NCBI GenBank assembly: GCA_019113025.1
Contig: DXIF01000244.1
Coordinates: 1 to 33,889 of the forward strand
DNA length: 33,889 bases
DNA from: Candidatus Anaerobiospirillum stercoravium
GTDB taxonomy: Bacteria > Pseudomonadota > Gammaproteobacteria > Enterobacterales > Succinivibrionaceae
Reading direction: 5' to 3'
The notes beneath the pieces were generated by a model. The model did not search any database and was not told the origin of the DNA. It was given only the letters and a program-made list of their open reading frames with translations. The position numbers were made by a program, and so were the translations under genes. Positions 2,644-31,031 of this stretch are shown here, piece by piece; positions within the stretch are counted from its first letter, which is position 1, and the number at the start of each line of letters is the position of its first letter.

Positions 2644-5076
2644 ATGAGCACATCCACCCTGATCACTTTAGTGGTAATTGCCGTCGTCTTGGTTTTGTTT
2701 GTCCTACCGCTGCGCATGTCGTGGCGCTCCAAGGGCATTATCGCGCTCATCGCTCTCATCGCTCCCAGCAAGAGCTATCTGTACTTGGTAGTAGGAGGCG
2801 ATGCCTTTGACCCCCATATTCCCTACAACCTCACCTTTATCTTAGATTTAGCCCGCACCACCGCCATTTTCTTAGCACTCTTGGTCTTGCTGCGCCTAAT
2901 CATCAATGTGGGCTATCGCCTCTTGCACTTAAACTGGCATTGTGAGCTGTTCCCGACCTCCTCGCTGTTCCATGCCCAGCTCATGGTGATCGCGTCCTTG
3001 CTTTTAGCCTGCTATGGCACATCCTGCGCCTACAGCACGCCTGAGCTCAAGCGCTATGAGTTTACCTTAGAGCGCTTAGATCCGCGCCTTGAGGGCATGA
3101 AGATCATCATGCTCTCCGATCTTCATATCTCAACTCCCACTGATGCAAGCTACATCTACCAGCTGGTTGAGCGGGTTAATGCCAGCAAGCCCGATCTGAT
3201 CTTACTCAATGGCGACATAGTTGATGGCACCTTGGCGCAGCGCCGCCCCTTAACCGACCTACTCTTTGCGCTCAAGGCCAAATACGGCGTCTTTATCACC
3301 AGCGGCAACCACGAGTACTACTCCAACTACCCAAAGTGGCGTCAATACTTTGAGCAAGGCGGCTTCATCAGCCTCGACAATAAGGTTGTAGCCTTACAAG
3401 ACCAAGCAGGTAAGCTACTGCTCAACCTAGGCGGTCTAACCGACCCCCGCGCGGCGCGCTATAACTTGCCCACCCCTGATGTCACTGGAGTCGTGCAAGC
3501 CTTAGATGACCGCGCGCCAAGCCTGATTATGTCCCACCGCCCGCAATACGCGGTCGATTTAGCGCTCACTGCCCACCAAATCAACGCGCAACGCGCCCAA
3601 GCTGCCGCAAAGATAGCAGCTCAGAACGCAGCGGTGCACCCAGCTGCCCCTCAAGCTAACGCCCCTGCGGACGCCCCAACGGAGGCCAAAGCGGACGTCC
3701 AAGCAGCAGAGACCAAGGCCCCCGCCCCTAACTTTATCCCCAAGCATGTGGATTTAGTGCTCTCAGGCCACACTCATGGCGGGCTGGCCTATGGCTGGCG
3801 CGAGCTGATTGCTCAAGCTAATGGCGGCTTTGTCTCTGGGCACTATCAGCTCAATCACACCCACTTGGTAGTGGGCAACGGCATCATGGTCTGGATGGGC
3901 TTTCCGTTGCGCTTGGGCGTCCCTAACCAAATTGTTGAGCTGACCTTACATAGCAAGCTGCCCCAAGGCAAAATGCCGCTGCCACTCAGCGCGCGCTTAA
4001 CCGCCGCCGCCGAGCTCAAGTATGAAGCCGCGCAAAAGGCTAAAGCCCAGCAAGACGCATCCAAACCAGCTCTGGCCGCCCGCGCGCAGCTCACCATGCC
4101 CGCTGCGCAAGAGAGCGTTAACCCAGCAGCGGCCCCACTCAGCCCTGAGCACATCATTGCCCCGCACAGCGATGACGGCATCATTGATAGCTTTAGCCTA
4201 GCGCAGAGCGATGAGATTAAGCCTAGCGGCAGCGTACTCCATATTCCAAGAGAGCTGTCCAACCTCGAGCTCATCTTACCGATGGTCGATGCAGAGACCG
4301 GAGCGGTCTCAAGTGCCATCACCAAGCTGGCAGTGCTGCCCGAGCGCATCTCCCACGACCAACTGCGCCGCATCAACGCGATTTTGGCCGAAGACCCAAC
4401 CCGCGCTGCGCAGCCCGCCCAGCAAGAAGCTTCCAGTGACAAGCAGGAAAGCCTGAGCACCGATCCTAAGAGCGGCGTAAGCGTCATCTTGCTCAAGGAT
4501 GCCCCACTCAAGACGCAGCCGACACAGCAGAATACCAAGCAAGCGGCACCACAAGCCGCGGCGAACAAGCCTGCAGCTCAGGGGCAAGCACCCGCGCAGC
4601 CCACAGCTCAGCCTGCCACCAACCAGCAGGCGCCCGCCCCGCAAAGCGCCGCACCGCATCCTACTGAGCCCGAGCCTGCTGAGCCTGCACCGACTGAACC
4701 TGCGCCCGCCGAACGGGGACAATTGCACCTGACCGCAGTCGCTCCAAATGCCGCGCCGCAGGTGAGCACCAACCGGCCCACTGCCGCCCAAGGCGCCGTG
4801 AATGCCGCTGATGTCAGCGCGGCGCTCAGTCCTGAGGAGCAAGCCGATCACATGACCGCGCTGGAGGATAATGCCCTCTACAACCTAGGACCGGTCTCGG
4901 CGGCCACTTCTTACACGCTGGAGCTGCAAACGGAGTACGCAATCTCCCTTGACCCGAACAATCAAGCGCGCAGCGACAGCACCGTGTCAGACCTCCTGAG
5001 CACCCCGGACAAGGACAACAACGCGGACGCCAACGCGGGCGCGAACCCAGGCACTGAGTCGGCCGCAGCGCCATAA
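2644..5076 (+). CDS. Membrane-anchored calcineurin-like metallophosphoesterase (YaeI/YkuE-like) with low-complexity insert and long Ala/Pro/Gln-rich C-terminal extension
   Basis: N-terminal TM segments; IIMLSDLHIS, LNGDIVDG, TSGNHEYYSN, SGHTHGG metallophosphoesterase motifs. Confidence 0.85.
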   Translation: MSTSTLITLVVIAVVLVLFVLPLRMSWRSKGIIALIALIAPSKSYLYLVVGGDAFDPHIPYNLTFILDLARTTAIFLALLVLLRLIINVGYRLLHLNWHCELFPTSSLFHAQLMVIASLLLACYGTSCAYSTPELKRYEFTLERLDPRLEGMKIIMLSDLHISTPTDASYIYQLVERVNASKPDLILLNGDIVDGTLAQRRPLTDLLFALKAKYGVFITSGNHEYYSNYPKWRQYFEQGGFISLDNKVVALQDQAGKLLLNLGGLTDPRAARYNLPTPDVTGVVQALDDRAPSLIMSHRPQYAVDLALTAHQINAQRAQAAAKIAAQNAAVHPAAPQANAPADAPTEAKADVQAAETKAPAPNFIPKHVDLVLSGHTHGGLAYGWRELIAQANGGFVSGHYQLNHTHLVVGNGIMVWMGFPLRLGVPNQIVELTLHSKLPQGKMPLPLSARLTAAAELKYEAAQKAKAQQDASKPALAARAQLTMPAAQESVNPAAAPLSPEHIIAPHSDDGIIDSFSLAQSDEIKPSGSVLHIPRELSNLELILPMVDAETGAVSSAITKLAVLPERISHDQLRRINAILAEDPTRAAQPAQQEASSDKQESLSTDPKSGVSVILLKDAPLKTQPTQQNTKQAAPQAAANKPAAQGQAPAQPTAQPATNQQAPAPQSAAPHPTEPEPAEPAPTEPAPAERGQLHLTAVAPNAAPQVSTNRPTAAQGAVNAADVSAALSPEEQADHMTALEDNALYNLGPVSAATSYTLELQTEYAISLDPNNQARSDSTVSDLLSTPDKDNNADANAGANPGTESAAAP

Positions 5077-7417: not shown

Positions 7418-10400
7418 TTAGCGGCGAATGCCGTAGGCATTGCGCGCTTGGTAGCTGGCGTAATGCTGCGAGCGCGGCGGCTCGGGCGCAGGCGCGGCCA
7501 GACCTGATTGGAGCTGATTTAAGGTATCAAGCTGCTCTTGGGTCAACGGTGCCACCGAGTTTAAGCCATTATTGACCACCTCGTTTAAGACCGCGGACGG
7601 GTCATCATCTTCATAACTCCCCGCCCCATAGCCGCCATAAGGCCCGTCAATCGTGCCCATGCCCATTGGCGCGCCCAGCATGTCGGCCATCCCAGGGTTC
7701 ATCGCGGTACCGGCGGAGAAATTAAGCCCCGGATTGGCGCTAGCGCGCGCCAAATCCTTTGCCTTAACGCCCGTAGCGCCACGCCCTGAGGCCAGCTCGC
7801 CCATTTGCGCCAGCGCTTGCGACAGCTTGCTGTCAACCGGCGCCCCCAGAGCGTCCCCTTGCCCCATAGCGTCCGCCTGGGCCAAACCGGCCATGGTCGG
7901 ATTAGGACTTAACATGGCATTAAGTCCACGCCCCGAGCTTTGCGGGCCGCGCGCGAGCAAGGACGCGGCGCTTGGCGCCGCGCCCTGACTTGCGCCCGCG
8001 CCCGGCCGCACCGCAGGTCCCCCCATGGTCCCGGCCATAGGCGCCCCCAGCGGAGCGCCCATCGTGGGCACCGCCCCAAAGCCCTCAGGTACCCCGGAAA
8101 CCGCGCCCATACCCTCGGCCCCATAGGAGCCCACCGCTTCCACCGCACCAATTGGTGCCGGATTAAGCGCTTGCTTGGCGCTGCGCCGTCTAAACGGCAT
8201 CATCGGTGCACGCGGCGCCCCACTTGGGGTGACCTCAGTCTGAGGCTGCGCGGAGCTGGCCACCGCTTGAGCCTGAATTGAGCGCAAGTCGACTTGGTCG
8301 TCTTGCGTTTCAGCAGCTAAAGCGGCTGCGATATCGCGCGCTAAGTCCTGCTGATACTCAGCATTGTTTTTAAGCTGCTCCTTTTCCTCGGCGCTTAAGG
8401 CCGAGACAATGGCTTGCGCGACCGCGGCTACATTGACGGCGCCTCCCAGTTCCGGCTGGGTCGCGGCGGCGCGCTCCGTCTCAGCAATCAGCGCCGCGCT
8501 GAGCGCATCAAGCTCAACATCGCCGGTAGACGGCGCGGCGGCCGCTTGTTCCTGCGCGCGTGCCGCCTTGGCGCGGCTGCCAGAGATAATGCTCTGGGCT
8601 AGACGCTCAACCTCGGTCGGCTCTTCCGGCGCCGCCGCACTGGCCGCCTCAGGCGCAGCCGGTACAGCCGCACGCTCAGCGGGAACCTCCGGCTGCGCGC
8701 GCCGCCCCGCTTTGAGCTTGCGCTCTAAAGCGGTGTGCTCGTCTTCATCCTCAGCGGCGTCCGCACTCAGCGCAACGGACCTCGGCGCGCTAGGCTCAGG
8801 CGCGGGCCCAATTTGCTCCGCAGCGGCGGGCTTAGTTGTTTGCTCCCGCGTTGCTTGGGCTTGGCGGCGTTTGCGGCGCTGCTCTTTGTTTTGCGCCAGC
8901 TTTTGCACCAACGCTTCTTTTTCATCAAGCTCGTCGTCAGAGACCGCGGCGGCTGGAGCCTCAGGCTCAGCGGCTGGCGCGGCCGCGACCGGCGCAAACG
9001 GATCGGGCTGATCCTGCATCATGGTGGCGATGGTCGCGCGCTCAGCTTGATCCAACGCGGACTGGGGGGTGCGCTCGGCTGCGCGCGGTGAGCTCGCGCG
9101 CGGACCTGCGCCTTGATCGTTTAGGGCTAAGGAGCCCGCGGCATCTTGGGCTTGCACCGCATCAAGGCTATCACCGGATGGCTCACCGAGGCTTTGGCGC
9201 CAGAGCTTAACCTCGGGCTCGGCAAAAGAGGCTTGCGCTTGCTGCGAGTGCCCCGAGAGCTCTTCATCGCTTAAGCCGGCCGCGCCTGCGACACTAAGAC
9301 CACTGTTAGCGGCAAAGTCGGCCGATTCCTTGATATGGCCCTCGGCATCGACGTCATAGAGCAGGCGCAGCTCTTCCTCGCTCAGACCGGTCTTAGCCGA
9401 AAGCTCGCTTAAAGAGATGCCCGCGACGATAAATTCATGGGCCTTATTTAAGGTCTCGACATTGATGCCAAACGGCTTTTCGGCTTGGTACTTGCGCACA
9501 TAGTCCGGGTCATAAATCATGTCGACTACAGGCGCGCTCTTGCCCGGCGCGCTCTTGCCCGGTGCGCTCTTGCCAGACGCACCGTGGACGGGCGCAGCGA
9601 CCGCGAGGTCACTGGCATCAGGCTTAATCGCACTGCCTGAGACCGTAATCTTGAGGTCAGAGCCGCCATCAATCGCGTTGCTGGGCTCAAAGTCGATGGT
9701 GAGCGTACTGGCCGCCGCTTGCGCGTCTGCGGGCGGGGTGCGCTCCGCGTTTTTGCGCGCAATACGCGTGGTTAAGCTCGAGAGCGCATCAAAGCGCAGC
9801 TCGTCCGTGGCCTTATCAAATTCCTCTTCGCTGGGCTCTTGCGCCTGAAATTCTGGGCTCAACTCCACATCGAGCGCGGAATCAAGGGCGCTGAGCTCGG
9901 CGCTGCCCTCCGGCATATAGATACCGCTGTCCTCAGAGCTGGGCACATCCGCCGACAGCGCACCTAAATCCAGATCTGAGGTAAAGTCCGCGCCATCGGC
10001 AAGCTTTGCTTCAGCGGGCGCATCAAAGCTTGAGGCCAGCGCCGCTTCACTGAGCGGATTGGTAAATTCCACCCCCAAATCGTAGGCATGGGGCATGACC
10101 GCGGCGACACTATCCTCCGCGCCCAGCGGGGCTAAATCGTCATCGGAGAGCTCCTCTGCAAGTTCCGCGGCGCGCTCGGTGTCTGCGACCTCATCTAAGG
10201 CCGCCGCCACTTCAACGTCGGCTAGCACGCGGTCAGCTAACAGCTCGTCGGCCAGCGCGCTATCGGCCTCGACGCCCACCATAGCGTCAGCGCCAACATC
10301 GGCACCGGTGTCGTCAGCACCAGCGCCTGCGTCGGCGTCAGCACCGGCCAGCGCGTCCGCATCCGGCGCTAGGGCCGCGCCGTTTAGCGCGGACGATTGT

Positions 10401-11269
10401 GATACTGCTGATACGGGGTCACGGGTTGAGTCCGAATGGTCGGCGGTCCCTGACGCTTGCGCACTGCCGGAGCCGGGCTCGGCCGTCCCGGACGAGGCAC
10501 GCTGCGCGGACGATGGGTTGGCTGCGGCGGAATCTGCCCCCGCGGCATCTGTCCCAGCGGATTGTGTCCCGTCCGGCCTGGGAAAGCTCCGTGCTGCGGC
10601 CGCTCCCTCAGGAGCCCCCATGCCCAGCGGATTCATCGGGTCACGGCCGGGCGCTGCCGACAGCGGCACTGGCGCGCTGCCCGCGGCCGCTAGCGAGCGC
10701 GTGAGCGAGGATAAACCGGTGGTGATGTCTTCGGCCGATAACGCGGCCGGGGCGTCCTCATCTAAGTAAGCGACGCCCTCTGCGTACTGCGACGCCTCAG
10801 GCTGAGCGGCAGGTCGGGATGACGGACGCGCGGGCTTGCCGCCTGAGCTTAGCATCTGCTTAATTTCGCCTAATGAGTCCTTAAGCCCCTGCTGCTCGGA
10901 GATGATATTGGCGTAAGCCTTTTCTTGCTCGTCAGCGCTCTCCCCTAACTTGTAGTACAGCTCGGAGATGGCATCGCCCAGCGTCGTGCTGGTGCCGTCG
11001 GCCTTTTTAATTTCGGTGGCGAGCGTTTGCTCCTCGCTGTTAGGTAAATTGAGCTCACCGCGCTTGCGCCGCCCATACAAGTCGTCTAAGGACTTGGCGG
11101 TGTCGTCTAATTGCGCATTGGCCCGCGTCAGCTGCGCCTGCAGCTCATCTAAGGTGTTCTCCAGCCGCGAGGCGCGCCGGGCATTTAAGATAAAGGACAC
11201 CAAGAGCAAGATGAGGACGGCTACTAAACCGCCAATGAAATAGATCAAACGCAGGTCGATGCTATCCAC
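7418..11269 (-). CDS. DUF2802-like membrane/coiled-coil protein encoded after cheW, expanded to 1283 aa
   Basis: N-terminal TM plus coiled coil (FIGGLVAVLILLLVSFILNARRASRLENTLDELQAQL); HTH-like LNKAHEFIVAGISLSELSAKTGLSEEELRLLYDV; syntenic position after cheW. Confidence 0.6.
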   Translation of the reverse strand: MDSIDLRLIYFIGGLVAVLILLLVSFILNARRASRLENTLDELQAQLTRANAQLDDTAKSLDDLYGRRKRGELNLPNSEEQTLATEIKKADGTSTTLGDAISELYYKLGESADEQEKAYANIISEQQGLKDSLGEIKQMLSSGGKPARPSSRPAAQPEASQYAEGVAYLDEDAPAALSAEDITTGLSSLTRSLAAAGSAPVPLSAAPGRDPMNPLGMGAPEGAAAARSFPRPDGTQSAGTDAAGADSAAANPSSAQRASSGTAEPGSGSAQASGTADHSDSTRDPVSAVSQSSALNGAALAPDADALAGADADAGAGADDTGADVGADAMVGVEADSALADELLADRVLADVEVAAALDEVADTERAAELAEELSDDDLAPLGAEDSVAAVMPHAYDLGVEFTNPLSEAALASSFDAPAEAKLADGADFTSDLDLGALSADVPSSEDSGIYMPEGSAELSALDSALDVELSPEFQAQEPSEEEFDKATDELRFDALSSLTTRIARKNAERTPPADAQAAASTLTIDFEPSNAIDGGSDLKITVSGSAIKPDASDLAVAAPVHGASGKSAPGKSAPGKSAPVVDMIYDPDYVRKYQAEKPFGINVETLNKAHEFIVAGISLSELSAKTGLSEEELRLLYDVDAEGHIKESADFAANSGLSVAGAAGLSDEELSGHSQQAQASFAEPEVKLWRQSLGEPSGDSLDAVQAQDAAGSLALNDQGAGPRASSPRAAERTPQSALDQAERATIATMMQDQPDPFAPVAAAPAAEPEAPAAAVSDDELDEKEALVQKLAQNKEQRRKRRQAQATREQTTKPAAAEQIGPAPEPSAPRSVALSADAAEDEDEHTALERKLKAGRRAQPEVPAERAAVPAAPEAASAAAPEEPTEVERLAQSIISGSRAKAARAQEQAAAAPSTGDVELDALSAALIAETERAAATQPELGGAVNVAAVAQAIVSALSAEEKEQLKNNAEYQQDLARDIAAALAAETQDDQVDLRSIQAQAVASSAQPQTEVTPSGAPRAPMMPFRRRSAKQALNPAPIGAVEAVGSYGAEGMGAVSGVPEGFGAVPTMGAPLGAPMAGTMGGPAVRPGAGASQGAAPSAASLLARGPQSSGRGLNAMLSPNPTMAGLAQADAMGQGDALGAPVDSKLSQALAQMGELASGRGATGVKAKDLARASANPGLNFSAGTAMNPGMADMLGAPMGMGTIDGPYGGYGAGSYEDDDPSAVLNEVVNNGLNSVAPLTQEQLDTLNQLQSGLAAPAPEPPRSQHYASYQARNAYGIRR
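9531..9575 (-). repeat. 15-bp tandem repeat x3 encoding the (G)KSAP pentapeptide
   Basis: GGCGCGCTCTTGCCC / GGCGCGCTCTTGCCC / GGTGCGCTCTTGCCA. Confidence 0.9.
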
Positions 11270-24849: not shown

Positions 24850-26502
24850 CTAGGAATCAGACTCGGGCGCAGACGCATCTTTGCTTGCGGCCACGCTGCG
24901 GCGCCGCCGAGGCACCTTGACCACGGTGAGCTCAACCGAGCTCGGCTCAGGCTTTGACTCTTCAGTTACGTTTTTGCGCGGCGTGCTCTTGGTGCCACGC
25001 GGGCGAACAGCGCGCTTAGGCTTAACCTCAGGCTCATCGGCCTGTTCTTGCAGCTGGGCATAGGCCTGATCGACCAAATCCGACTCTAAGGCCTTAAAGG
25101 CAGTGTTGACCTGATGCAGATACTCAAGGTAGTCGGCCGTAACCTGCTGCAAGGCATCGGATAATTCCTGCAAGCCCTTACGCGAGGTGCTCGGCAGCGC
25201 GTCGGCGTCCTCGGCCATGAGGGCATCGTCGCAGCGCAGCTCGACGTTTTCGGTGAGCTGACGCAGCTTCGAGAGGCTCTCTTGGAGCAGTAAGTTGAGC
25301 TGAATCAGCTGCTTGGCTTGCGCTACCGACGGCTCGGCCTTGACTAAGTTCTTAATCGAGGTGCGGGTATAGCTCTTACGCAGCTGCGCAAGATAGCTCT
25401 TGCTGTTGTGAATAAATAAAAAGAGCTCTTGATCTTGCTTGGAGCTGGCGGTCATGCCGTTGCTTTGTGACGCCGTGGCCTCACTCTTGGTGCTGCGCTT
25501 CTTACGTCCCACGCTAAGTTTAGACGCATTCCTGAGCTCGGCTTCTGCTTGCTGCGCCTCCTTTTGCTCCCGTTCGCGCTCATCTAAGGCGGCCCGGCCT
25601 TGCGGCGTGCGCATCACGATCTCATCGTTCTCATTGAAGAGTAAGCTGGAGCGCTTCTTAGTCGTAGGCTGCGGCAAGCTGCCCGGCGCAATAATGCTCT
25701 CCTTAGGCAGCGGCGCATGCTTTTGCGTCTGCGGGGGATTGGCCCAATCCTCCAGCGAGGCCCGCAAGCGCACCACGGCCTGCGACAAAATCTGACAGGT
25801 ACGCGACTCGGAGATGCCCTTGATCAAACCAATTTCACGCAAGTTCATCTCTTGGTCGTAGTAGAAGGTCAGGATTTCGCGCTCACGCTGGGGCAGCTGG
25901 GAGATGGCATGGGCCAGCGCCTTTTTAAATTGCGCGCCATTGATCGACTCAAAGAGCTTGTCATCGGGCATTTGCCCCACGATTTCGCTGAGCGGCTGAT
26001 CGCCGATCACATCGTCGGTCAGTCCCGTGTCTTCAATGCCCATCACCTGCGAGGTATTGCTATCAAGCAGCATCTGGTGATAGCGATTGATGTCGACTTT
26101 GAGATAGGCCGCAATCTCGGCGTCGGTCGCCGGGCGTCCCTTTTCGTGCGATAAGCGCAGCATGGCCTCGCGAATGGCGCGGGTGTTTTGGTGCACCGAG
26201 CGGGGCGTCCAGTCGCTTTGGCGCAATTGGTCGATAATGGCACCACGGATGCGAATCGAGGCATAGGTCTCAAAGGTCGCACCTTGCCCCTCTTTGTAAT
26301 TTTGCAGCGACTCAATCAGACCGATCATGCCTGATTGCACGAGATCGTTGACGTCAACCGAGGCAGGCAGACGGGCCTTAAGATGCATGGCCACTCGCTT
26401 TACCAGCGGCGCATACTTCACTACCAGCTCATTGCGATCAACCACATTTTGACCTTGGTAAGCTCTAGCGCCTTTTAACAAACTTTGACTCAAGTTGGCC
26501 AT
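24850..26502 (-). CDS. fliA: Flagellar sigma-28 factor FliA with a ~295-aa C-terminal extension
   Basis: VDRNELVVKYAPLVKRVAMHLKARLP, VDVNDLVQSGMIGLIESL, FETYASIRIRGAIIDQLRQSDW, LPQREREILTFYYDQEMNLREIG; sigma region 4 ends near aa 250 but the ORF runs to aa 550. Confidence 0.95.
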   Translation of the reverse strand: MANLSQSLLKGARAYQGQNVVDRNELVVKYAPLVKRVAMHLKARLPASVDVNDLVQSGMIGLIESLQNYKEGQGATFETYASIRIRGAIIDQLRQSDWTPRSVHQNTRAIREAMLRLSHEKGRPATDAEIAAYLKVDINRYHQMLLDSNTSQVMGIEDTGLTDDVIGDQPLSEIVGQMPDDKLFESINGAQFKKALAHAISQLPQREREILTFYYDQEMNLREIGLIKGISESRTCQILSQAVVRLRASLEDWANPPQTQKHAPLPKESIIAPGSLPQPTTKKRSSLLFNENDEIVMRTPQGRAALDEREREQKEAQQAEAELRNASKLSVGRKKRSTKSEATASQSNGMTASSKQDQELFLFIHNSKSYLAQLRKSYTRTSIKNLVKAEPSVAQAKQLIQLNLLLQESLSKLRQLTENVELRCDDALMAEDADALPSTSRKGLQELSDALQQVTADYLEYLHQVNTAFKALESDLVDQAYAQLQEQADEPEVKPKRAVRPRGTKSTPRKNVTEESKPEPSSVELTVVKVPRRRRSVAASKDASAPESDS

Positions 26503-27118: not shown

Positions 27119-28141
27119 TTAGCTCCCCTTGCTTGACTCATCAAAGTCTGAGTCAATCAGCTTGCGCGAAGCCTCGATCTCCTGTTGGAGATCGAGCAGC
27201 TGTGCCTCAGACAGCACCGAGGTATCCATGCCCAAGATCTTGCCAATGGGCTGCGGCGGCGCATCAAAGCGCGACCCCAAGGCCCTATCAGAGGTGCCAT
27301 CACCTGAGTCCTCATAGCTGTCGGGACGAATTAAGTTCTCGACAAAGAACTCAAGATAGCCCCCCGGAATATCCGGAATCGGCCAATTGAGCACGCGGCG
27401 GGCAAAGCTCTTAAAGGCGCGCGCAGCTGGTGCTTGCGGGAAAGCATCGACCACGCAGGTGCGTTGGCGAATGGCTTTGCGCATATTGATATCAATCGGG
27501 ATGCAAGCGCACAGCTCTAAGGCGACGTCCAAGAACTTGTCGGTCAAGGTGACCAACTTCTTGAACATGAACTTGCCCTCTTCCAGGGAATGGACTTGGT
27601 TGGCAACGATCCGGAACTTCGTGACGCCATAATCGTTGGAGAGCACCTTCATCTGGGCGTAGGCATCAGCTACCGAGGTGGACTCATTGCACACCACCAT
27701 GATCACGTCTTGGGCGGCGCGGCAAAACGAGAGCACCATGTCCGAAATGCCCGCGGCGGTATCCACGATTAAGAAATCGATCGGCTCTTCAATGGTGGAA
27801 AAGGCGCGAATAAGGCCGGCGTGCTGATCGACGGAGAGGCCCGCCATTTCCTTTAAGCCCGAAGCGGCCGGAACAATGCGCAGACCTTGCGGGCCATCTT
27901 GGATAATCTCTTGGAGCGAGCACTCACCCTTGAGGACATGGGCTAAATTCTTGCGGACCTTTAAACCCAGCATCACGTCGATATTGGCAAGACCTAAGTC
28001 GGCATCAAACAGCATCACGTGCTTGCCCATCTGACATAAGGCTACGGCTAAGTTTAAAGAGACCGAGGACTTACCCACACCGCCCTTACCGCCGGTTACG
28101 GTGATGACCTTGACTCTTCTCCACTTAAAATTCGAAACCAT
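27119..28141 (-). CDS. flhG: MinD/ParA-like flagellar number regulator FlhG (FleN), lacking the N-terminal DQA motif
   Basis: VITVTGGKGGVGKSSVSLNLAVAL, LFDADLGLANIDVMLGL, FLIVDTAAGISDMVLSF; located between fliA and flhF. Confidence 0.93.
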   Translation of the reverse strand: MVSNFKWRRVKVITVTGGKGGVGKSSVSLNLAVALCQMGKHVMLFDADLGLANIDVMLGLKVRKNLAHVLKGECSLQEIIQDGPQGLRIVPAASGLKEMAGLSVDQHAGLIRAFSTIEEPIDFLIVDTAAGISDMVLSFCRAAQDVIMVVCNESTSVADAYAQMKVLSNDYGVTKFRIVANQVHSLEEGKFMFKKLVTLTDKFLDVALELCACIPIDINMRKAIRQRTCVVDAFPQAPAARAFKSFARRVLNWPIPDIPGGYLEFFVENLIRPDSYEDSGDGTSDRALGSRFDAPPQPIGKILGMDTSVLSEAQLLDLQQEIEASRKLIDSDFDESSKGS

Positions 28142-29087: not shown

Positions 29088-31031
29088 CTACAGGCCGCGG
29101 GGCAGCAGGCCCTGTGCCGCATCATCCTCCACTGCGGCGAGGGCGCGCCGTGCCAAACTGCTAGGGTTAGGGATATCGAGGTCTTCGGGGACACGCTGAC
29201 CATCAGTAATGTAGCTGATGGGCAGCTTCATCTCAATGCATAAGGACAAGGCATCACCGAGGTTTTGGCACTCATCGATCTTGGTTAAGATAAGCCCGGT
29301 TAAGCCCACCATCGCAAAATGCTCATAGGCGTGCTGGAGCACCTTGCGCTGGGTGGTGCACGGCAGCACTAAGTAGTGCTTAAGCTGCAAGCTCGCTTGC
29401 TGCTTGAGTTGGGTTAACTGCACGTTAAAGCGCTCGTCCTTAAAGCCTACGCCTGCGGTATCAACCAAGATCAAGCTCTTGTCGGAGAGGGTATAGAGCA
29501 GCTGCGGCAGCTCTGAGAGATTCTTAACTGCAAAGGTAGCGCAGCCCATGATGCGGCCGTAGGTTTTGATCTGCTCAACGGCGCCGATACGATAGTGATC
29601 GGCGGTGACAATGGCCACGCGTTGCGGGCCATAGCGCATCACAAAACGCGCGGCCAACTTGGCCAGCGTAGTCGTTTTACCGACACCGGCTGGACCAATC
29701 AAGGTAACAATACCGCCCTTGGACACGATATCATCATCACCTACCAAGATCGCGCGCTCTAATAAAGACACGATCTCGCGCCACGCATCGTTAAAGGAGA
29801 TCTCAGCGGACAAGCGGTTAACCAAGGAGTCCGCGACCTTGTCTGAAAAGCCTACGCTGTGCAACAGCTTAAAGACCATGGCCTTTACCGGCTCATTGCG
29901 GGAGCGATTGTCTTGCAGCAGGCCCGCCAGCTCAAATTGTAAGAGCTTACGGATGTTCTCAACCTCGGCGCGCATTTTCTCAAGATCTTGGCGCACCACG
30001 GTATCAGACTCAGCGCCGCGGTAAGAATCAATTCCGGCGCGACTGACGTACTCGTCCTTTTCTTGCTTAACCTTGGACTTAACAAAGAAATTCTTAAATT
30101 CCCGCTGCTGCGATAACGGCAGCGGCGGAGTATTAAAAAGATCGGCATCCTCATCTAACGATGGATCAATTCTAGATGGGCCTGCCTTCTTCATGGAATC
30201 GTTGGCCATATCCTCATTTCCATCATTGACAGGGTTAATAATACGGGGCGAAGCCAGGTCGCGCGCTGCGTCGCTGCCTAAATCGCGCTCGGAATTACGG
30301 GCGCGAACTAGGTCGCCGCCTTGCGCTGTCCCCGTGGGCACCGGGCGCTCGGGCATGATGTGCGCTGGGGTGAAATCAACCTCGGAGGCTGCGGCGACCT
30401 TGGCGCTGGGCACCGCTGCCGCCACGCCCAAGTGACGGCCTAATTCCTCTGGCGTGGGGGCGCTCTTGAGGGCACCTTGCCCCCGCCCCTGTTGCGTCTC
30501 AGGCAGCGCGCCTAAGCCTAAGGGACCGCCTAAGGGAGCACTGGGCTCTTTGTCGGTGTAAGCTGACGTTTTGTGCGCGGCGAGATTGGCGATATCGCCG
30601 CTGAGCTTAGCGCCCTGCTCATGGCTCATCGCATGCTGGCGCTCTAAAATCTCAATTAAGCTCTTGGCGTAGGCTTGGTTTTTGGTGGGCGCGGTATTGT
30701 TGCCAGCGCCGCCCCCGGCCGCGTTCCCGGCTGCACTGCCGGCGTCATTGCCTGAGGCAGTGGCTCTCGCGCCTGGGCCTTGGCCATAGGTAAGGGCAGC
30801 GGCACCCCGCGAGCCGGACAAATCGACTTGATCATCGCTCAGGGCCCGCCCACCCAAGGCTTGGCCTAAAGCCTGAGGCGTAAGGGGCACCTTGCTTTCG
30901 ATACCTGCCACGATCTCAACGCCGGCGGCTACACGCTTATTGGACATGATGATAGCGTCTTCGCCCAGCTCGTCTTTGACCATGGTCAGAGCTTCACGCA
31001 TGTCTTTAGCTACAAAGCGTTTTAACTTCAT
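29088..31031 (-). CDS. flhF: SRP-like GTPase FlhF with long low-complexity linker
   Basis: MKLKRFVAKDMREALTMVKDELGEDAIIMSNKRV; GPAGVGKTTTLAKLAAR; TADHYRIGAVEQIKTYGRIMG; LVDTAGVGFKD; LTKIDEC. Confidence 0.97.
   Translation of the reverse strand: MKLKRFVAKDMREALTMVKDELGEDAIIMSNKRVAAGVEIVAGIESKVPLTPQALGQALGGRALSDDQVDLSGSRGAAALTYGQGPGARATASGNDAGSAAGNAAGGGAGNNTAPTKNQAYAKSLIEILERQHAMSHEQGAKLSGDIANLAAHKTSAYTDKEPSAPLGGPLGLGALPETQQGRGQGALKSAPTPEELGRHLGVAAAVPSAKVAAASEVDFTPAHIMPERPVPTGTAQGGDLVRARNSERDLGSDAARDLASPRIINPVNDGNEDMANDSMKKAGPSRIDPSLDEDADLFNTPPLPLSQQREFKNFFVKSKVKQEKDEYVSRAGIDSYRGAESDTVVRQDLEKMRAEVENIRKLLQFELAGLLQDNRSRNEPVKAMVFKLLHSVGFSDKVADSLVNRLSAEISFNDAWREIVSLLERAILVGDDDIVSKGGIVTLIGPAGVGKTTTLAKLAARFVMRYGPQRVAIVTADHYRIGAVEQIKTYGRIMGCATFAVKNLSELPQLLYTLSDKSLILVDTAGVGFKDERFNVQLTQLKQQASLQLKHYLVLPCTTQRKVLQHAYEHFAMVGLTGLILTKIDECQNLGDALSLCIEMKLPISYITDGQRVPEDLDIPNPSSLARRALAAVEDDAAQGLLPRGL

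Follow-up and report, generated by a model that had tools for sequence, protein, structure and literature searches.

Sigma factors of the FliA (sigma-28) family usually consist of around 240 to 250 amino acids and stop soon after region 4. Work on FliA has made use of an E. coli fliA mutant (PMC4598750). Additional C-terminal parts are known from the ECF41 and ECF42 sigma factors, whose extensions are regulatory (PMC3426412, PMC8999054). DNA binding next to region 4 has been described for mycobacteria, in which WhiB7 docks onto region 4 of the sigma factor and uses its AT-hook to bind an AT-rich site just upstream of the -35 element, which adds specificity (PMC3905903, PMC10245118). In contrast to the usual sigma-28 factors, the FliA protein of Candidatus Anaerobiospirillum stercoravium described here has a length of 550 amino acids, more than half of which follow region 4.

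The gene was found in the window, i.e., the whole stretch of DNA that was analysed (33,889 nucleotides). It makes up one contig in a genome of 3.34 Mb and 86% completeness, whose closest named relatives are uncultured Anaerobiospirillum MAGs in the family Succinivibrionaceae. fliA is surrounded by flagellar and chemotaxis genes in the order flhA-flhF-flhG-fliA-cheY-cheZ-cheA, some of which were named by reading their sequence. The NCBIfam FliA model (NF005413, TIGR02479) spans residues 12 to 254 of the protein (E 6e-83; 278 bits with a cut-off of 201), and residues 1 to 253 form an ordinary sigma core with complete regions 2, 3 and 4 as defined by Pfam (Table 1). The original prediction of a sigma core up to about residue 250, followed by an extension of around 295 residues, was borne out, the extension measuring 297 residues. 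The 550-aa protein belongs to the FliA family by descent; length is a typical and not a defining trait of this family. Sequence searches with the extension against Pfam, NCBIfam and the PDB gave no credible match. Two other proteins encoded in the window are conspicuous: FlhG exceeds its length in most sister genera by about 50 to 70 residues, apparently through a longer C-terminal end, and an Ala/Glu/Asp-rich protein of 1283 aa (window positions 7421-11269) has no Pfam match, resembles FimV/HubP by eye and could be a polar organiser.

Table 1. Position of fliA, its parts and two neighbouring genes in the window.
Feature	Residues	Position	Strand	Remarks
fliA, sigma-28 with C-terminal extension	550 aa	24850..26502	-	stop codon included; ATG start
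Sigma region 2	26-99	26206..26427	-	Pfam PF04542
Sigma region 3	107-168	25999..26184	-	Pfam PF04539
Sigma region 4	199-248	25759..25908	-	Pfam PF04545
C-terminal extension	254-550 (297 aa)	24853..25743	-	
SLLF motif, KKRSSLLFNENDEIVMRTPQGRAALDERERE	282-312	25567..25659	-	genus-conserved, FliA-only
Predicted helical bundle	353-489	25036..25446	-	AF2; subclade G000/G005/G006/L065 only
Basic, probably disordered tail, KPKRAVRPRGTK and PRRRR patches	490-550	24853..25035	-	
flhG, neighbour upstream of fliA		27119..28141	-	
flhF, flagellar GTPase, neighbour of fliA		29088..31031	-	

Extended FliA proteins are a property of the genus. A fliA gene is present in nine of the ten Anaerobiospirillum genomes, and all nine encode an extended protein, with open frames of 442 to 895 aa and extensions of 184 to 636 aa; L065, a further Anaerobiospirillum MAG, also encodes an extended FliA. 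In the remaining genome, the fragmented assembly G007, fliA was not found and FlgM is present. Outside the genus, the FliA proteins of the family comprise 242 to 247 aa at the loci that were read, and the other open frames have 229 to 279 aa. A 516-aa frame of G050 was considered as a second extended case and rejected, as it owes its length to upstream read-through and stops shortly after region 4. For the 109 genomes of a class sample that had a FliA match, all frames of at least 310 aa and several shorter ones were read; none of the long frames continues for more than about 35 aa past region 4, and their length is due to read-through upstream of the start and not to C-terminal additions. A maximum-likelihood tree built from the sigma cores places the ten extended proteins on one side of a 100/99 branch, and in this tree the extension has a single, genus-wide origin. 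The sigma core itself is fast-evolving in the genus, since the internal branches are long (G009, G001/G008). Among the ways in which the original prediction could fail, it had named that the extension might be missing from close relatives and that a sequencing frameshift might have fused two genes. Neither of these two is the case, as all nine fliA-positive genus members are extended, the reading frame is intact in four assemblies obtained independently within the window's subclade, and dN/dS is low for the close pair among them.

The promoters of putative FliA targets differ between Anaerobiospirillum and its sister genera. Canonical sigma-28 sites (TAAA-N15-GCCGATAA) beyond the 5% shuffle level were found upstream of 12 of 29 flagellin genes in the sister genera versus 3 of 71 in Anaerobiospirillum (Fisher p 1e-5), a p value which overstates the significance because paralogous flagellin genes are not independent of each other and scoring relied on a hand-made matrix, so that the contrast is an association and not a proof. 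Eleven of the twelve sites of the sister genera are located 45 to 124 bp before the start codon; the three of Anaerobiospirillum are at chance level and scattered in position. Since many flagellin genes of the sister genera have sigma-54 sites, the contrast in sigma-28 sites depends on a subset of them. Upstream of flgM, a score reached by at most one in 50 shuffles was obtained for 9 of 12 loci in the sister genera versus 2 of 8 in the genus, and both sites in the genus are far from the gene and at odd distances. In G003, strong sigma-54 sites (TGGCAC-N5-TTGC) precede 15 of the 20 flagellin genes sampled (L180-L199), and flagellin control therefore looks sigma-54-driven in this genome. Flagellin upstream regions of the window's subclade contain neither sigma-28 nor sigma-54 sites above chance, and a de novo motif search, which recovered the sigma-54 sites of G003, gave nothing convincing in this subclade. 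Whole-genome counts of the exact sigma-28 pattern are similar to those of a reversed-pattern control and too close to be used alone. A further change is found in the sigma core: residue 92 is Glu in 23 of 24 FliA proteins of the family and in 12 of 12 class outgroups, and Gln, Asp or Gly in nine of ten rows from the genus. This residue presumably adjoins the segment with which sigma-28 reads the -10 element. Taken together, the late flagellar gene programme has probably been rewired in Anaerobiospirillum.

Several flagellin genes have conspicuous upstream regions. In the sister genome G011, C-runs of varying length fill the spacer between the -35 and -10 elements of sigma-28 flagellin promoters (L237, L238 and L239), an arrangement that looks like phase variation via spacer length. 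Tetranucleotide repeats (GATA, CAGA/CAGG and GATT) are located around 200 to 260 bp upstream of several flagellin genes of G000, G005 and G006 (L217, L218, L222, L223, L224, L226 and L132) and could possibly mediate phase variation as well. The flagellin leaders of G000 and G005 (L215-L230) share short self-complementary stretches, e.g., GTTGCAAG...CTTGCAAC, which are possibly part of a structured RNA.

In most species, the FliA extension ends in a basic and probably disordered tail. Canonical AT-hooks (RGRP) are present in the tails of four relatives, namely three in G003, two in G004 and one each in G002 and G009 (shuffle p <0.005 each). No canonical RGRP was found in the FliA tails of the window protein, G001, G005, G006 and G008, and the last 60 residues of the G001 tail are net acidic. 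G003, G004 and G009 have the terminal peptide RGRPxxxPxVxSxEEFxAM in common, which, in the family searched, has a full match only in FliA. The suggestion that the extension tethers FliA to DNA, which the original prediction offered besides an intrinsic regulator and an FlgM-docking module, gains support from the shuffle-significant AT-hooks of the four relatives, but the window protein itself lacks the RGRP core. The tails may bind DNA. Flagellin families are very large in some of these genomes, with at least 150 matches in G003, 105 in G009 and 48 in G004; 39 to 44 matches were counted in the sister genus g2 (genomes G010 and G011) and 3 to 18 in most others. An association of AT-hooks with flagellin number, suggested by the fact that G003, G009 and G004 have the most flagellins, was dropped because g2 combines its many flagellins with a FliA of normal length.

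As a leading, albeit tentative, explanation, we propose that the extension is an on-board module for promoter selectivity and protein interaction, which acts in a WhiB7-like manner and is tied to the rewired FliA regulon. The extension would exit region 4 where this domain faces the DNA upstream of the -35 element, and its basic end, which bears AT-hooks in some species, would grip this DNA like the AT-hook of WhiB7. The conserved SLLF motif would dock a partner, either RNA polymerase or a flagellar regulator, and the helical bundle would supply an extra interaction surface in the window's subclade. The extended FliA could then work at promoters without the canonical sigma-28 site, and the late flagellar regulon would be rewired as a consequence. 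An AT-hook tail on region 4 would make sense of the coincidence of the extension with the loss of the usual promoters; the link between the two would be a causal one. However, the window protein has basic patches only, the tail end of G001 is acidic, and an alternative FliA promoter motif was not found in the window's subclade. Going further, it is conceivable, if rather doubtful, that sigma-28 has absorbed an upstream-DNA-binding activator in the form of an AT-hook tail on region 4 and that its regulon has moved to a new promoter class. If true, sigma-28 promoter specificity would partly be set by a fused non-sigma module. A sigma-28 factor that has doubled in size and whose canonical promoters are gone at flagellin genes and flgM offers a natural experiment on the specificity of sigma factors. 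Should promoter choice be set by the tail, this would show that an alternative sigma factor is able to take over the job of an activator.

The most conserved part of the extension is a short linear motif and not the helices. The SLLF motif (consensus SLLF-D/N-E-x-G/D-EI-x-MRT-x-x-GR) starts around 30 to 90 residues past region 4. It is complete in seven of nine genomes, with 8 of 31 positions invariant across these seven, and partial in two, G003 and G004, which retain only its first half. Within the genomes of the genus, the motif is present in FliA and in no other protein, and five of 395 genomes of the order matched in a motif search, all of them Anaerobiospirillum. AF2 predicts short strands with low to moderate confidence at the motif; PDB matches to it, LFNEKGE repeats in Outer Surface Protein A chains, were taken as chance. 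The helical segment expected by the original prediction was recovered by AF2 as a predicted bundle with a pLDDT of mostly 80 to 90, even with an alignment of three or four sequences, and contains a conserved LExLHQVN helix. One weak PHROG match to an entry without an assigned function (E 0.0025) was rejected as evidence for a domain known elsewhere, as it is likely due to coiled-coil chance, and Foldseek found no significant fold match to the predicted bundle (best E 0.08). Most members of the genus lack the bundle, so that a function shared by all of them cannot depend on it.

These features also fit another possible role, in which the motif and the bundle would bind a protein and control the activity, stability or location of FliA, any contact with DNA being incidental. 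FlgM, FlhF/FlhG, a polar or export component and RNA polymerase are candidates for the partner. The feature with the widest conservation is the SLLF motif and not the AT-hook, the bundle with its conserved helix is confidently predicted, and regulatory C-terminal extensions have a precedent in ECF41 and ECF42 (PMC3426412, PMC8999054); retention of FlgM would make a second layer of control possible. However, none of the candidates can be named as the partner, and the extension resembles no known regulator, the fold search with the bundle included. A docking or regulatory role via the SLLF motif may be entertained as an explanation nearly as good as promoter selectivity, with which it is compatible.

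Selection differs along the extension. Among the assemblies of the subclade, the amino acid identity of the bundle is around 40% and synonymous divergence is near-saturated. In the close pair G006/L065 (dS of the bundle around 0.9), dN/dS is 0.06 for the bundle, 0.05 for the motif and 0.13 for the tail. Wider unsaturated pairs have a dN/dS of around 0.2 in the bundle, and values of up to 0.4-0.6 were obtained for the linkers and the tail in several pairs. By these ratios, the SLLF motif and the bundle are under purifying selection, and the extension is a maintained coding sequence, part of which is constrained and part of which is loose. The fast evolution of linkers and tail would be expected if proteins were inflated in this lineage, the tail being largely tolerated drift with few conserved residues and long disordered additions and intergenic gaps occurring genus-wide. 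Indeed, FlhG comprises 327 to 356 aa in the genus versus 274 to 307 aa in most sister genera (one of 355), the gap between flhG and fliA is larger than in the sister genera, and a metallophosphoesterase (window positions 2644-5073) carries an Ala/Pro/Gln-rich tail of around 430 residues after its domain. Nevertheless, inflation is an unlikely explanation for the extension as a whole, since the invariant motif residues, a predicted bundle under purifying selection and recurrent AT-hooks are unexpected from drift.

FlgM is encoded by a separate gene (G000:C42:9995-10156; 41.3 bits versus a Pfam cut-off of 25) and exceeds this cut-off in each of the ten Anaerobiospirillum genomes, and the FlgM profile of Pfam gave no match in the extension. 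A fused anti-sigma factor was rejected on these grounds, and since FlgM is separate and found genus-wide, the extension did not replace it. It is very improbable that the extension instead serves as a built-in inhibitor, which folds onto the core and keeps it blocked in the absence of a signal, a mechanism proposed for ECF41-type factors: its size and position resemble the regulatory domains fused to ECF sigma factors (PMC8999054), but FlgM is intact in the genus, the bundle is missing from most of its members, and AF2 gives no confident arrangement of core and extension for full-length FliA (pTM 0.30, which is weak evidence given the shallow alignment).

With the promoter-selectivity reading in mind, the extended FliA can be compared with the known systems. 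Like other sigma-28 factors, it has regions 2 to 4, a flagellar neighbourhood and a separate FlgM in the genome; it differs by the 297-aa extension, the genus-specific residue 92 and the missing canonical sites at flagellin genes and flgM. As missing canonical promoters are a property of the targets, its sigma-28 membership by descent stands. With ECF41 and ECF42, it shares an added C-terminal part, which may regulate the sigma factor. The extensions of these proteins are SnoaL-like or TPR domains, neither of which was matched by the window extension in Pfam, whereas sigma-28 belongs to group 3 and retains its anti-sigma partner; as region 3 is present, the window FliA is not an ECF factor. 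CarD of Myxococcus is, by description, likewise RNA-polymerase-associated and DNA-binding, but it is a separate protein and not a sigma factor. Compared with the mycobacterial pair of WhiB7 and sigma-A, the AT-hook would here be part of the sigma factor itself and comes without an Fe-S domain, and the window protein has basic patches in its place; in G002, G003, G004 and G009, however, the likeness extends to an AT-hook beside region 4, in a position suited to gripping AT-rich DNA upstream of the -35 element.
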